NCBI GenBank assembly: GCA_902544985.1
Contig: CACCFV010000008.1
Span: 1 to 35,004 of the forward strand
Direction of reading: 5' to 3'
Origin: an uncultured Pelagibacteraceae bacterium
GTDB lineage: Bacteria; Pseudomonadota; Alphaproteobacteria; Pelagibacterales; Pelagibacteraceae
Length of the DNA stretch: 35,004 bases
The translations under genes and the position numbers were made by a program. The notes beneath the pieces are model-generated. The model saw only the letters and a program-made list of their open reading frames with translations, was not told where the DNA came from and ran no database searches. Below, piece by piece: positions 14,464 through 21,507 of this stretch (positions within the stretch are counted from its first letter, which is position 1; each line of letters starts with the position of its first letter).

Positions 14464-15288
14464 GTGATTAGACAAGTACTATTAAATTACAAAAAACAAT
14501 CAAAAAAAGTTTACTTAAACACAAAAAATTTTTTTAAGCCTGAAATCTTTGTTAAATTAGCTGACAGTAAGTCCGAAATTAAACAAGCTCAGAAACTACG
14601 TTATCAAGTTTTTTTTTCTGATAGAAATAAAAAAAAAATTCTTAATATTAGTAATTTTAGAAAAGATTCCGATAAATATGATAGTTATTGTGATCATGTT
14701 ATAGTAAATTATAAACATTCTAAATTTTCTAAAAATAAAGTTATTGGCACATATAGATTGCTTCAACAGAAGGTTGCTGAAAAAAAAATTGGTTTTTATA
14801 GTGCTGAAGAATTTTGCCTAGATAAACTGATTCAATCAGATGAATATACTAACATGCTTGAATTGAGTAGGTCTTGCATTTCTCAGAAATTTAGAAGCAG
14901 AAATGTATTAAAATTAATGTGGAAAGAAATTTATAATTATATAAATACAAATAAAATTGATGGGATGTTCGGAACAGCTAGTTTTTTAGAGATTGATATT
15001 CAAAAAATTAATAATCAGTTATTATTTCTCCAACAAAATTATAAAATGCCTGAAAATATTAGAGTAAAAGCTCGAAAATATTGTAGTGCAAAAATAGATT
15101 ATTCAAAAAATATTAAATTAAATCTGAAACTAGTAAAATCATTACCAACTCTAATAAAAGGTTATATAAAACTAAATGCTTATATTGGTGATGGTGCTGT
15201 TATTGATTACAAATTTAAAACTACTGATGTTTTTGTTTTCTTACCTTCAAATAAAATAAATAAAGAATATGTAGAAAAAATTGTTTGA
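14464..15288 (+). CDS. OlsB-like N-acyltransferase (GNAT/hemolysin-like)
   Basis: This belongs to the Acetyltransf_5 / OlsB family, which transfers a 3-hydroxyacyl chain from ACP to an amine, classically ornithine, in the first step of ornithine-lipid synthesis. The family core is visible: the early block AQKLRYQVFFSD around residues 42-53, CDHVIV followed by VIGTYRLLQ, then LELSRSCISQKFRSRNVLKLMWKEI and IDGMFGTASF. The length of 274 residues is usual. The start is a GTG at 14464 with no Shine-Dalgarno, and no closer ATG exists, so the true start could be slightly downstream at another near-cognate codon. A PlsC-like gene follows after 3 nt and would add the second acyl chain. Ornithine or glutamine lipids are known to replace phospholipids in phosphate-starved marine bacteria. 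Confidence 0.8.
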   Translation: MIRQVLLNYKKQSKKVYLNTKNFFKPEIFVKLADSKSEIKQAQKLRYQVFFSDRNKKKILNISNFRKDSDKYDSYCDHVIVNYKHSKFSKNKVIGTYRLLQQKVAEKKIGFYSAEEFCLDKLIQSDEYTNMLELSRSCISQKFRSRNVLKLMWKEIYNYINTNKIDGMFGTASFLEIDIQKINNQLLFLQQNYKMPENIRVKARKYCSAKIDYSKNIKLNLKLVKSLPTLIKGYIKLNAYIGDGAVIDYKFKTTDVFVFLPSNKINKEYVEKIV

Positions 15289-15291
15289 TTA

Positions 15292-16032
15292 ATGTTAAGT
15301 TATTTTGTTAAAAAAATTTCTAAAATTGATTATATTAAAGATCTATATAAAAAAAATTATGATGAATTAAAAAGAACTGATAATTTTTGGGCTAAGACAA
15401 TTGAGTATTTAAATATTAAATACACTGTTAACTCATTAGAAAACATACCAAGTAAAGGGCCAGTAATAATTGTATGTAATCATCCATTCGGTCTTTTGGA
15501 CGGATTAATCGTTGCTGCGATAATAGCAAAAATTAGGAAAGATTATAAAATTTTGATAAATGAGGAAATTACACAAATTGATCTGATTGAAAAATATCTT
15601 TTGCCAATTAAATTCTCTGGAATAACTGGTGATATAAAACAAAATATTAAAAGTAAAAAAAGTGCAATTAATTTAATTAATGATGGAGGTTCGCTAATAT
15701 TATTTCCATCAGGAGAAGTTGCTACTTCAAAGTTCATTTTTGATAAACCAAAAGAAAGAAATTGGAAACCATTAGTTGGTTCCATTATTAAAAAAACAGA
15801 ATGTAAAATTATACCTATTTATTTCAAAGGTAAAAATTCTTTATTATTTCAAACTGTAGGTTTTTTAAGTGATCAACTTAGAAGAATACTATTTATACGA
15901 GAATTATTAAATAAAAAAAATAACAATTATTTTTTAAAAGTTGGAAACTGTATAGATTCAAACAAATTTAAATATTGGAACAGTAATGCCATTGCAGATT
16001 ATTTAAAAAATCAAGTCTTAAAACTTAATTAG
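15292..16032 (+). CDS. PlsC-like lysolipid acyltransferase (OlsA-like)
   Basis: This is a membrane-associated 1-acylglycerol-phosphate-acyltransferase-type enzyme of 246 residues. The acyltransferase block is NHPFGLLDG at residues 63-71, a variant with five rather than four residues between His64 and Asp70, as found in the branch that accompanies hemolysin-like OlsB domains. The second block FPSGEVATS is at 138-146. Together with the preceding N-acyltransferase (3-nt gap) it forms a two-gene unit resembling a split bifunctional OlsF, so the likely job is O-acylation of a lyso-aminolipid. A role in ordinary phosphatidic-acid synthesis is less likely given the neighbour. Confidence 0.82.
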   Translation: MLSYFVKKISKIDYIKDLYKKNYDELKRTDNFWAKTIEYLNIKYTVNSLENIPSKGPVIIVCNHPFGLLDGLIVAAIIAKIRKDYKILINEEITQIDLIEKYLLPIKFSGITGDIKQNIKSKKSAINLINDGGSLILFPSGEVATSKFIFDKPKERNWKPLVGSIIKKTECKIIPIYFKGKNSLLFQTVGFLSDQLRRILFIRELLNKKNNNYFLKVGNCIDSNKFKYWNSNAIADYLKNQVLKLN

Positions 16033-18442: not shown

Positions 18443-18802
18443 ATGAAAGATTTAATTACTTGCCCAGCAGAAAGAGCAATTTATTTTTTAGGTGGTAAAT
18501 GGAAGATTAGAATTCTATTTTCACTTTATGAAAATAAAAAAGTAAGATTTAACGAGCTCAAAAAAGTGCTAAAAACTATCACCCAACAAATGTTATCCAA
18601 ACAACTAAAAGAATTAGAAACTGATGGTATAATTAACAGAAAAGTATATCAGGTAGTTCCTCCTAAAGTTGAATATTCTCTTACAGAATTTGGATTATCT
18701 GTAATTCCAATTTTAAAGTCTTTTTCTGATTGGAATAAAAAAAATACGAGAACAATTTCAATAAAACTTAATAAAAGTTTTGAAGAAAATAGAATTAGAT
18801 AA
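18443..18802 (+). CDS. HxlR-family winged-helix regulator with N-terminal cysteine
   Basis: This 119-residue HxlR-type winged-helix repressor opens with ITCPAERAIYFLGGKWKIRI, the family hallmark. Cys7 matches the redox-sensing N-terminal Cys of YodB/HypR, which respond to quinones and electrophiles. The recognition helix region is RFNELKKVLKTITQQMLSKQL, and the wing (NRKVYQVVPPKVEYSLTEFG) is typical. It is divergent from the small ORF-azoR-pirin operon with two overlapping palindromes between them. The likely job is repression of that operon until an electrophile modifies Cys7. The target is inferred from position. Confidence 0.9.
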   Translation: MKDLITCPAERAIYFLGGKWKIRILFSLYENKKVRFNELKKVLKTITQQMLSKQLKELETDGIINRKVYQVVPPKVEYSLTEFGLSVIPILKSFSDWNKKNTRTISIKLNKSFEENRIR

Positions 18803-18816
18803 TTTTAACTAATCAA

Positions 18817-18848
18817 GAGCCAATTCTCATTGGAGCACTATTGGAGCA
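18817..18848 (-). repeat. att-like dispersed repeat, copy 2 (beside tRNA fragment)
   Basis: This is the same element as at 16833 with a slightly degraded palindrome (CCAATTCTCATTGG). It is followed by 22 bp that match the flank of the intact tRNA-Met almost perfectly and then by the tRNA fragment. The whole block 18811-18917 repeats at 19709-19814. Confidence 0.9.
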
Positions 18849-18870
18849 AAATGATATCGATCGTCTAGAA

Positions 18871-18917
18871 TGGTAGCGGGAAGTGGGATCGAACCACTGA
18901 CCTCGGGCTTATGAGTC
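18871..18917 (-). pseudogene. 3' fragment of tRNA-Met (partial duplicate)
   Basis: These 47 bases are identical to the 3' part of the tRNA-Met at 19768-19844: CCA end, acceptor 3' strand, T arm, variable loop and anticodon loop. Identity stops in the anticodon stem at ATGAGTC, the usual crossover zone for tyrosine recombinases. The rest of the tRNA is absent, so this is not a functional gene. It has the form of an attachment-site half left by an integrated element. Confidence 0.92.
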
Positions 18918-18995: not shown

Positions 18996-19049
18996 TCAAA
19001 TTAAAGAATCTTAGTCAAGAACCAATGTCATTGGAGCACTACTGGAGCA
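18996..19049 (-). repeat. att-like dispersed repeat, copy 3 (54-bp version)
   Basis: The 31-bp core at 19019-19049 is preceded by 23 bp (starting TCAAATTAAAG) that also precede copy 4, giving 54 bp with a single mismatch (T/C in the second octamer). No tRNA sequence follows here. A truncated coding-like tail abuts instead. Confidence 0.9.
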
Positions 19050-19057
19050 GAAAATGA

Positions 19058-19147: not shown

Positions 19148-19534
19148 TTATTTAGGAGCGTATTGTGCTTCTCCGTTTCCAAATGACCAGTTTTCTTTTG
19201 CAACCTCAACCAAACTTATAAAAACATCCTCTTTTCTAATATCTAGTTCTTTGTTTAGATCTTCAGCAATTCTTTTATATAATTTTTGTTTTAATTCTGT
19301 TGATCTACCACTATTTAGAGTTATTTGAATTATAACAATTTTATTTGTGTATTTAATTCCAAGATAACTTTCAGGAATATTTAACTCTGTATCGTCATGC
19401 TTTGTTATAATTTGAAACTTATCATCTTTTGGAACACTTATCTCTTGCTCCATAGCACGATATATAATTTCACCAATTTTTTTTGAGTTTTCAGCGTTAT
19501 ATGATTTGTTTAGGTCTATTCTTACTAAAGGCAT
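19148..19534 (-). CDS. tautomerase-superfamily protein (MSAD-like)
   Basis: This small enzyme of 128 residues belongs to the tautomerase superfamily, whose chemistry depends on an N-terminal proline exposed by Met removal. The sequence starts MPLVRIDL. D38 and R77 (SGRSTELKQKLYKRI) sit about where malonate semialdehyde decarboxylase has Asp37 and Arg75 in Pro1 numbering, and the length matches that longer branch rather than the 60-residue 4-oxalocrotonate tautomerases. The substrate cannot be assigned. It lies alone between two att-like repeats, inside the segment bounded by the tRNA-Met fragment and the intact tRNA-Met, so it may have arrived with or been left by an integrated element. Confidence 0.82.
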   Translation of the reverse strand: MPLVRIDLNKSYNAENSKKIGEIIYRAMEQEISVPKDDKFQIITKHDDTELNIPESYLGIKYTNKIVIIQITLNSGRSTELKQKLYKRIAEDLNKELDIRKEDVFISLVEVAKENWSFGNGEAQYAPK

Positions 19535-19691: not shown

Positions 19692-19745
19692 TCAAATTAA
19701 AGAATCTTAGTCAAGAACCAATGTCATTGGAGCACTATTGGAGCA
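19692..19745 (-). repeat. att-like dispersed repeat, copy 4 (next to intact tRNA-Met)
   Basis: The core is at 19715-19745 with the extended left arm from 19692. It lies 22 bp beyond the CCA end of tRNA-Met. The two TTGGAGCA octamers and the CCAATG palindrome are intact, so this is probably the least altered copy. Confidence 0.92.
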
Positions 19746-19767
19746 AAATGATACCGATCGTCTAGAA

Positions 19768-19844
19768 TGGTAGCGGGAAGTGGGATCGAACCACTGACCT
19801 CGGGCTTATGAGTCCCGCGCTCTAACCAACTGAGCTACCCCGCC
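19768..19844 (-). tRNA. tRNA-Met (CAU anticodon), CCA encoded
   Basis: This is a 77-nt cloverleaf read leftward from G at 19844. The acceptor strand GGCGGGG pairs with UCCCGCU through G-U at both ends, the D arm is GCUC/GAGC, the anticodon loop is CUCAUAA, and the T arm is AGUGG-UUCGAUC-CCACU, followed by A and an encoded CCA. The pattern fits elongator tRNA-Met rather than initiator, because the three G-C pairs below the anticodon loop are absent and position 1 pairs. An odd point is an A31-G39 mismatch at the top of the anticodon stem (CGGGA against GCCCG). Its 3' half is duplicated at 18871-18917. Confidence 0.95.
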
Positions 19845-19935: not shown

Positions 19936-20148
19936 TTAGCTAAAAACAACTAACCCAAATAGAATTAAACCCGTAGAAGCTGCGGCAGAAAAATAAAACT
20001 TTTTTCTAATTTCTTGTTTTTTGTCTAATTTTACTCTATTCAAAAGAACGTTAATATTTGTACTTCTAGAAGTGGTATTTGGAGTGTCAGAAACTTTATA
20101 TCTTGAAGTAAGTTTTCGTGTAAGAGAATTAGTTAAATTTTTCATCAC
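19936..20148 (-). CDS. small tail-anchored membrane protein, paralogue A
   Basis: This 70-residue protein has a basic, Ser/Thr-rich N-terminal half and a single hydrophobic C-terminal segment (FYFSAAASTGLILFGLVVFS) ending at the terminus, so it should be tail-anchored with its N-terminus in the cytoplasm. The central stretch STNINVLLNRVKLDKKQEIRKK matches the neighbour at 20188 (RVDINVLKSKLEAQQGKELRKN) at I-N-V-L and E-x-R-K positions, so the two are paralogues. No known family is recognised. It follows paralogue B on the same strand after 39 bp and is probably in the same transcript. The start could be the second Met. Confidence 0.7.
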   Translation of the reverse strand: MMKNLTNSLTRKLTSRYKVSDTPNTTSRSTNINVLLNRVKLDKKQEIRKKFYFSAAASTGLILFGLVVFS

Positions 20149-20187
20149 GCCTAATAAAACATTCTTTTAAATTATTAGCAAATAAAA

Positions 20188-20418
20188 TTATAAAGATAGG
20201 AATATCCCAATCGAACCTAGCAGCAAAATACAAAATGAAAAAATGAAAATATTTTTTCTTAACTCCTTACCTTGTTGGGCTTCCAGTTTTGACTTCAAAA
20301 CATTAATGTCGACTCTGCCGGAACTAATTTTGCTCGGATTCAAAGGCTTTTCAGAAACTTTAATATCATTTGGGGTCTCGATATTTTCAGTATTCTCTGT
20401 AAAGCCTTTAGTATTCAT
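20188..20418 (-). CDS. small tail-anchored membrane protein, paralogue B
   Basis: This 76-residue protein has an acidic, polar N-terminus (ENTENIETPNDIKVSEKP), the same INVL...ElRK core as its neighbour at about residues 38-55, and a C-terminal membrane segment (IFIFSFCILLLGSIGIFLSL). A short helical or coiled linker is predicted by eye between core and anchor. No known family is recognised. It is divergent from the double winged-helix regulator at 20530 with 111 bp between starts, which suggests control by that protein. Confidence 0.72.
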   Translation of the reverse strand: MNTKGFTENTENIETPNDIKVSEKPLNPSKISSGRVDINVLKSKLEAQQGKELRKNIFIFSFCILLLGSIGIFLSL

Positions 20419-20462
20419 ATCTTATTAAAACATCTAAGAGCTTGAAGAACAATTTTATGAAA

Positions 20463-20516
20463 GTTCAATTTGGGTCACTATTAAATTGACAACTGTTCAA
20501 TTTGGGTTTCTATTAA
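20463..20516. promoter_or_regulatory. 22-bp direct repeat pair before the double winged-helix gene
   Basis: GTTCAATTTGGGT followed by nine bases ending CTATTAA occurs at 20463-20484 and again at 20495-20516, a 32-bp period (about three helical turns) with two mismatches. AAATTG just left of the second copy makes a partial inverted repeat with CAATTT. The pair ends 13 bp before the ATG, so it probably covers the promoter or early leader as an operator. Confidence 0.75.
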
Positions 20517-20529
20517 CAAAAATTAAATT

Positions 20530-21507
20530 ATGAGTATTCAAGAAGTAGATTTTTCCAAAACTCTCTCAGACGAGCAGGTCTATGAGTCCATTATGTCTCA
20601 CTATTCTATTCTTAGTAAAGATTGGATATCACATCAATGGAATTGGATGAACAGTGTTTATAGGCCATTTAATGATCACTATAAATATTTGATAATAATT
20701 TCTTTGATTGAAAAGACACTTCAATTTTATGACCAAATGAATATTCAATACTCTTATGATGAATACTACTCAAAATCATATGTTCAAATTGATAAGTTTA
20801 GTATTACTGAACTTTGTGAAAAATTAGATTTACCTAAAGAAACAATTAGAAGAAAAGTTATAGAGCTTGAAAATGTGGGTGCAATAACACGTAATAAAAA
20901 AAAAATTGTAATTGATAGAAAAGCATTTTCGTTTGTTAAACCTGATAACCAAATAAAATTTTCAGCAAAATATATTTACTTAGTTTCACAAGCTTTAAAT
21001 AGAGATAAGGTTTATTCTAAAAAACCTGATCAAAAAATTATTGAAAATATTATAAAAAAGAAATTTTCATTATCATGGAGATGGTTTTACAGGATGCAAA
21101 TACCATTGATTATAGGTTACCATAAATTTTTTAAAGATTTAACTACATTTCATATTTGGGGAACAGTTTGCATGAATCAGGTTTTAAATGTTTCAAGCCA
21201 ATTAAATTCAGATAATAAAAAATCTTCATTAGATTACTTTACTACTAGTAGTATTGTTATAGAAAATCTTGGAGCAGAAACTGGTATAAGTGCAATGTCA
21301 ATTTCTGATATGACTAAAATCCCCAGAGCAACAATAATTAGAAAGTGTAAATATTTAATAAAAGAGGATTTAGTAAAATTAAATAAAAAAAAACAATATG
21401 TGCTAACCACTATGAATTTTAGAAAAATTTTACCTTATCAAGCACAAATTTTTAAATACAAAGCTAAATTTATTCGTAAAATTTTAAATCTTCTTGTAAT
21501 TTCTTAA
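20530..21507 (+). CDS. uncharacterised regulator with two winged-helix domains
   Basis: This 325-residue protein has two DNA-binding-like segments. The first is residues about 90-132 (FSITELCEKLDLPKETIRRK then a wing with VGAITRNKKKIVID). The second is about 255-297 (MSISDMTKIPRATIIRKC then EDLVKLNKKKQYVL). Both read as MarR/GntR-like winged helices, and they resemble each other, with S-I-x-[DE]-[LM], [LI]-P-[KR]-x-T-I-[RI]-R-K and a lysine-rich wing. The middle part (140-240) is aromatic and of no family I know. It could bind the pair of 22-bp repeats before its own gene. The function is unknown beyond probable DNA binding. A replication-initiator-like two-wHTH protein is an alternative but less likely on a chromosome. 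Confidence 0.68.
   Translation: MSIQEVDFSKTLSDEQVYESIMSHYSILSKDWISHQWNWMNSVYRPFNDHYKYLIIISLIEKTLQFYDQMNIQYSYDEYYSKSYVQIDKFSITELCEKLDLPKETIRRKVIELENVGAITRNKKKIVIDRKAFSFVKPDNQIKFSAKYIYLVSQALNRDKVYSKKPDQKIIENIIKKKFSLSWRWFYRMQIPLIIGYHKFFKDLTTFHIWGTVCMNQVLNVSSQLNSDNKKSSLDYFTTSSIVIENLGAETGISAMSISDMTKIPRATIIRKCKYLIKEDLVKLNKKKQYVLTTMNFRKILPYQAQIFKYKAKFIRKILNLLVIS

Follow-up and report, generated by a model that had tools for sequence, protein, structure and literature searches.

Organization of the locus

The window, by which we mean the whole stretch of 35,004 nucleotides that was analyzed, comes from a SAR11 bacterium of the family Pelagibacteraceae and makes up contig C8 in its draft genome of 0.93 Mb (G000). 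Two short genes of a microprotein family that we call FAM lie in tandem on its minus strand, 42 bp apart, and the gene of a putative regulator (R) diverges from the first of them, FAM-B, with two copies of a candidate operator in the intergenic region. The features are as follows.

19936..20145, minus strand: FAM-A, microprotein of 69 residues with a predicted C-terminal membrane helix, second gene of the pair (ATG start; a GTG lies one codon upstream)
20188..20418, minus strand: FAM-B, microprotein of 76 residues with a predicted C-terminal membrane helix, first gene of the pair (ORF list and AF2 model)
20424..20429, minus strand: TTTAAT, possible -10 element of the FAM promoter, 5 nt before the ATG of a presumably leaderless transcript
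20463..20475, minus strand: candidate operator copy M2, ACCCAAATTGAAC, beginning 57 nt before the FAM-B ATG
20486..20491, plus strand: TTGACA, probable -35 element of the R promoter
20495..20507, minus strand: candidate operator copy M1, ACCCAAATTGAAC, 32 bp from M2 and downstream of the TTGACA of R, starting 9 nt after its first base
20530..21507, plus strand: R, putative regulator of 325 residues, built of two fused units of two long helices and a winged helix each (AF2 model and profile match of one half to the other)

The first-pass annotation had listed the pair as ORFs of 70 and 76 residues. Their positions stand, but the ORF of 70 residues begins with GTG-ATG, which makes FAM-A a protein of 69 residues from the ATG at 20145. 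Such starts also matter for the 41-locus neighborhoods used below: the gene caller accepted ATG starts only and therefore missed the GTG-start FAM-A of locus L088.

FAM-A and FAM-B are paralogous membrane microproteins

Both ORFs contain the core that had been noticed in them, namely INVL and then E-[IL]-R-K, which is directly followed by a hydrophobic C-terminal stretch (19-20 residues). A single blastp comparison of FAM-A with FAM-B gave a modest E of 1e-4, and the pair score was equalled by one of 5000 full shuffles and by 50 of 5000 shuffles in which the soluble part and the membrane helix were each scrambled on their own. Profile-profile comparison with 14 orthologues each gave P = 3.9e-10, or 3.2e-7 with the membrane helix left out, and neither score was reached by any of 150 column-shuffled profiles. 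The case for paralogy is thus strong by profile comparison and moderate from the two sequences by themselves. A lack of significant similarity between the two had been named as the outcome that would speak against it; similarity was found, since the orthologue profiles match each other even without the membrane helix. Median dN/dS was 0.20 for FAM-A (261 usable of 400 pairs drawn) and 0.25 for FAM-B (381 of 400), where only pairs with 0.1 < dS < 2 were kept, and both genes are under purifying selection. Together, these results confirm FAM-A and FAM-B as real, conserved coding paralogues. The FAM-B frame of one locus, L179 (2626-3000), has an in-frame TAG in the core, with FAM-A and R open, which could be a sequencing error.

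The C-terminal membrane anchor proposed for both proteins is borne out by prediction. Hydropathy is highest at residues 50-68 of 69 in FAM-A and 57-75 of 76 in FAM-B, and the AF2 model of FAM-B agrees: residues 1-31 have pLDDT below 50, and residues 38-75 form a single continuous helix that appears to be a juxtamembrane helix continuing into the membrane helix. At the start of this helix lie L41 and N39, which are invariant and conserved at 90% or more, respectively, among 41 aligned FAM members. Within the membrane helix, too, some positions are conserved: A54, L60, and G64 of FAM-A reach 90% or more, as does I72 of FAM-B, and G71 of FAM-B is invariant. Each protein is thereby predicted to have one membrane helix ending a few residues from the C-terminus and a soluble N-terminal part, as tail-anchored proteins do. 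The last 25 soluble residues include eight K/R and two D/E in FAM-A and six K/R and three D/E in FAM-B; this basic juxtamembrane segment predicts a cytoplasmic N-terminus, and an inner membrane topology with the N-terminus inside is very likely.

The duplicated architecture had been taken to suggest a hetero-oligomer or two versions of an adaptor at the membrane. A hetero-oligomer is not needed, as many genomes have a single FAM copy and three A-type copies lie apart from R with no operator; FAM may be an adaptor at the membrane.

Distribution and identity of the FAM family

A profile of the 41 FAM members matches 179 of 247 Pelagibacteraceae genomes at E 0.01, about 15 of these matches being weak (E > 1e-4). 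FAM was found in 86 of the 102 high-quality genomes and in 10 of the 14 genera among the 247. In an order-wide sample of 147 genomes, all 78 FAM matches fell inside Pelagibacteraceae, with none in the four listed genomes of another family. A class-wide sample of 289 genomes gave seven matches at E <= 0.01, of which two belong to the window's genus; the other five are not convincing (E 4e-4 to 0.009, partial profile coverage, within longer frames). Within the samples searched, FAM is therefore convincing only in Pelagibacteraceae.

The earlier statement that the pair has no known family holds, in that both proteins fall below every Pfam and NCBIfam cut-off. When all 41 members were compared with curated families, the best E-values were 0.00042 (Pfam) and 0.0034 (NCBIfam), with single or few members each, and searches of PADLOC, PHROGs, and PDB sequences returned nothing usable for FAM (best PDB E 0.33). 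The matches to ETRAMP (12 of 41 members, best E 0.004), PT26-6P_helical (3 of 41, best E 0.00042), and MacP (1 of 41, E 0.021) were taken as matches of composition. No description of the pair was found in the open-licence literature, judged by titles and abstract openings. A phage origin was also considered and set aside, as neither the A-type FAM alignment nor the R of the window has relatives on viral contigs.

In a FAM tree of 76 columns with many open forks, 10 A-type copies group with eight copies lying apart from R (support 96/95), and 12 B-type copies group with two of four further copies near R (99/95). The A copies of G078 and G240, the apart copy of G026, and the near-R copies of G074 and G083 fall elsewhere, and neither group includes the single copies of other genera. 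These misfitting rows make the number of duplications uncertain; on the simplest reading, which is tentative, the gene was duplicated within genus g1 and the copies later became separated in one sub-clade.

The neighboring regulator

The AF2 model of R (pLDDT 85.4, pTM 0.84) consists of two units, each with long helices and a winged helix. Profiles of its N-terminal and C-terminal halves match each other with P = 1e-19 over 140 columns, and R is for this reason read as a tandem duplication. Its affiliation is less clear-cut. The R of the window scored 21.1 bits against MarR_2, below the Pfam cut-off of 27, and the only model it passed was HTH_DeoR (25.2 against 21), as a bare HTH. Foldseek returned no match to the R model with E <= 0.001. 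Structural alignment placed R on MepR chains (Z 7.2-7.4), on many MarR chains (Z 6-7.4), and on the part of the CRP-family protein Clr that binds DNA (Z 7.7); Z values of this size are common for models with no true match. The predicted structure thus points to a resemblance to MarR- and CRP-like winged helices, none of the matches being decisive. The arrangement of R recalls that of SarS from S. aureus, a single chain with two winged-helix units (Z 6.6 over 177 residues); at an rmsd of 6.2 and 8% identity the arrangements are alike, and these values do not demonstrate kinship.

Proteins that match a single half of R also occur in other Alphaproteobacteria. Of the 289 class-sample genomes, 11 gave a match, eight of them from outside Pelagibacteraceae, and a set of alphaproteobacterial winged-helix proteins (L130-L138) that match one half of R has an LPRETVRRK-type helix in most members. 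Unlike R, these are mostly frames of about 150-240 residues, although L137 (316 residues) reads as two units. The class sample, including the genomes with half-R proteins, yielded no convincing FAM outside the window's genus. Among defense-related models, the PADLOC CARF3/Csa3/CasR models match R with a best value of 2.9e-9, the best stretch lying in their C-terminal HTH part. Matches to replication initiators (PHROG O-like, Phage_rep_O) were weak, each best stretch covering one winged helix, and this identity was rejected.

Gene order and co-occurrence

R was found in 172 of the 247 genomes at E 1e-8 and in 8 of the 14 genera sampled. R homologues (cluster c2) adjoin FAM in 30 of 41 loci, which were chosen for FAM and are not a random sample; 21 of these arrangements are divergent and nine convergent, and convergent genes overlap by up to 6 bp or end up to 11 bp from each other. 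A set of 80 named loci, the best 80 of 223 confirmed matches to the A-type profile and for that reason a biased and closely related set, keeps the order of R, FAM-B, and FAM-A found in the window in 79 cases, the exception being L179 with its interrupted FAM-B frame.

The co-occurrence with the divergent regulator for which the first-pass annotation had called is strong, and a shared operator (below) joins the genes. Of the 247 genomes, 153 have both FAM and R, 26 FAM only, 19 R only, and 49 neither (Fisher p 1e-17, kinship ignored). With weak matches removed, according to lists drawn up by hand from the E-values, the counts become 144, 20, 14, and 69 (p 1e-28), and within the genus (76 genomes) they are 67, 2, 1, and 6. 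Linked genes that are lost together in one event can inflate such figures. One genome that is 98% complete (G018) has FAM and no R match, and many other genomes with only one of the two are incomplete. Copies of R in L317 and L318 (second copies) and in L321 have no FAM match within the fetched stretch; upstream of R there is only a half-like site in L317 and L318, and a site with a second half-like one in L321.

Small hydrophobic proteins beside a probably autoregulated DNA-binding gene could also be a pair of toxin-antitoxin type, with FAM as a small membrane-active toxin and R as its autorepressing partner. We consider this very unlikely for a module that is widespread in one bacterial family and under purifying selection, the more so since FAM has no PADLOC match, the viral contigs gave no relatives of either A-type FAM or the window's R, and FAM stands without an R match in those 26 genomes.

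A candidate double operator between R and FAM-B

In the window, two copies of ACCCA-N3-TGRAC lie 32 bp apart between R and FAM-B. Exactly two sites at this spacing were found in 73 of 79 named intergenic regions; five of the other six have one degenerate copy, and the sixth (L151) spans just 56 nt, probably because a start was misjudged. A scan of the 247 genomes for double sites, with spacers of 17-21 nt allowed, returned 49, one per genome, all in genus g1 and all with a spacer of 19 nt, and the reversed control pattern gave no double site in the same genomes. Forty-eight of them lie 4-51 bp from the R ORF, and the remaining one adjoins R in L312.

Single strict sites are likewise concentrated at this locus. 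The window's own genome has three, two of them at the R-FAM locus and one inside an ORF taken for a transporter, and eight near-complete genomes together have 19, with 14 at the R-FAM locus and five elsewhere against seven matches of the control. Strict sites outside the locus are thus at control level, and the conserved double site is nearly unique to it; the counts use the strict pattern, which degenerate targets would escape. A role of R as a global regulator is not favored by these counts. The site is an imperfect palindrome, RYYCA-N3-TGRRY, which would fit the two diverged winged-helix units of R, and we infer with high confidence that R binds it.

The positions of the two copies suggest different effects on the two promoters. 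On the R strand, TTGACA is present in all 79 named intergenic regions, and M1 is offset from its first base by 9 nt in 75 regions and by 10 nt in three. M1 would therefore sit just downstream of the probable -35 element, a repressor position. The -10 element of R is uncertain because only 32 of 80 TTGACA sites are followed by TnTAnT after a 17-nt spacer. On the FAM strand, 56 of 79 named loci have TGnTT[TA]A no more than 24 nt from the ATG, and the FAM transcript may well be leaderless. M2 starts 57-59 nt before the FAM ATG in 71 of the 73 two-site regions, and this near-fixed distance suggests contact with RNA polymerase and hence activation. From these positions, it is reasonably probable that R represses itself and most likely activates FAM.

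The site core beyond the tandem clade

Outside the tandem clade, a shorter core, CCCA-N3-TG, is present between -80 and -40 of FAM in 23 of 32 loci (mean 0.14 and maximum 3 in shuffled sequences), and 21 of these 23 cores lie at -56 to -66. The 32 loci include close relatives and exclude L265, whose start is misassigned, and the copies in L101, L103, and L122; L307-L310 were read by eye, outside this count. The core is absent from the tested range in the other nine loci, including L117, where R is next door. It also occurs upstream of FAM in genus g4 loci that have R on another contig, so the link between site and FAM does not rest on proximity alone, though close relatives are numerous among these loci.

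Upstream of R the picture varies. Six of the nine convergent loci have CCC[AG]-N3-TG 28-40 bp upstream of R, and none of 20 in genus g4 has the site upstream of R, which means that autoregulation is not universal. The A-type copies apart from R in L101, L103, and L122 have no site (0 of 3). FAM loci of genomes with no R match are split: L119, L309, and L310 have the site, and L116, L118, L307, and L308 lack it. The site does not simply follow R; its presence or absence in these genomes is not decisive because several of them are incomplete. A further variant occurs in L262-L276, where 7 of 15 loci (L262, L266, L270, L271, L274, L275, and L276; loose pattern) have an inverted site copy at -81 to -92 that faces a forward degenerate copy nearer FAM, in place of the tandem pair.

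These data bear on the reading that R and FAM adjoin only through conserved gene order and that the site serves R alone. The double site of genus g1, where found, does adjoin R, as this reading expects. Nevertheless, the core precedes FAM even where R is elsewhere or convergent, and the 30 linked loci include both divergent (21) and convergent (9) arrangements; we regard mere adjacency as highly improbable.

Proposed mechanism

We conclude that R, FAM-B, and FAM-A belong to one SAR11 module, in which a regulator that controls its own gene is combined with one or two membrane microproteins. In the mechanism that we propose, R would act as a fused pseudo-dimer of two winged-helix units binding the pseudo-palindrome RYYCA-N3-TGRRY. 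Bound at M1, downstream of its own -35 element, it would repress its own gene; bound at M2, at a near-fixed distance upstream of FAM, it would control FAM, most likely by activation. The output of the circuit would be FAM, because R has no other evident target. FAM would reside in the inner membrane with its N-terminus inside, and its conserved juxtamembrane helix would most likely bind R, holding it off the DNA at the membrane and closing a membrane-based feedback loop. A contact between R and FAM is suggested by the architecture and is a possibility we put forward with reserve; the whole mechanism, in which FAM would feed back on R at the membrane, is our preferred though unproven reading and is offered tentatively.

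The closest precedent for such feedback is SdpR/SdpI of Bacillus subtilis, in which an autorepressor is captured at the membrane by a membrane protein encoded alongside it (PMC1626106). The two systems differ in both components. That account presents SdpI as a putative polytopic immunity protein (PMC1626106), whereas FAM has one predicted membrane helix in about 70 residues and often occurs in two copies. R has two units, and its only likeness to the SdpR model in the library scan was an HTH match of 16.9 bits (cut-off 100).

A different role for FAM is a serious candidate, if still short of probable: FAM proteins may be effectors that bind and tune a membrane complex, such as a transporter or envelope enzyme, while R sets the level of FAM and never touches it. 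The conserved positions in the membrane helices of FAM-A and FAM-B are what a specific helix partner would lead one to expect, and since the membrane helix too is conserved in this way, we consider the effector role about as likely as the feedback. The persistence of three A-type copies with no operator is also in its favor, as is the frequent location of the module near genes for an SBF-family transporter, a class-III aminotransferase, an alanine dehydrogenase, and ABC transport, which we take to be a taurine cluster. No gene for a membrane partner, however, is linked in every arrangement, the SBF and aminotransferase/dehydrogenase genes being absent near some loci, and by the strict site the regulon of R comprises little beyond FAM and R.

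A local autoregulator paired with a membrane protein is a known kind of system; what is new here is a microprotein family restricted to one lineage, a regulator of two fused units, and an operator nearly confined to one locus. SAR11 bacteria are streamlined and have few transcription factors, which makes a regulator seemingly dedicated to one or two membrane proteins of 70 residues notable, and we consider the R-FAM module a more interesting object than the FAM pair alone. If FAM does tether R, this would be a very small membrane-coupled switch. A bolder version, which we think rather unlikely, is a SAR11-specific minimal gene switch coupled to the membrane, in which a pseudo-dimeric regulator would control only itself and one or two tail-anchored microproteins that serve as both output and membrane sensor, and in which duplication and later separation would have left two tethers, one regulated and the other not. 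The module is readily recognized by its 32-bp double site and by the profiles.

Other features of the window

The segment beside the FAM genes contains several repeats. A 91-nt direct repeat (18827-18917 and 19724-19814) has copies that are 99% identical and 897 bp apart; the right copy covers part of an intact tRNA-Met gene (19768-19844), up to near the anticodon, and ARAGORN found no tRNA at the left copy. A Tautomerase_2 gene (19148-19534) and no integrase gene lies between the copies, and the arrangement suggests that an attachment site was duplicated around a short segment. A 57-nt repeat has three copies, at 18795-18851 (63%), 18996-19052 (the reference), and 19692-19748 (96%), which hint at repeated insertions at tRNA-Met. 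In L084, L086, L092, L093, and L094, varying genes (up to 1090 residues) lie between the FAM genes and tRNA-Met, a pattern suggesting that insertions recur at this spot in the genus. Elsewhere in the window, at 14464-16032, a GNAT-domain gene (Acetyltransf_5) is directly followed by an acyltransferase gene, a layout resembling that of ornithine-lipid synthesis.
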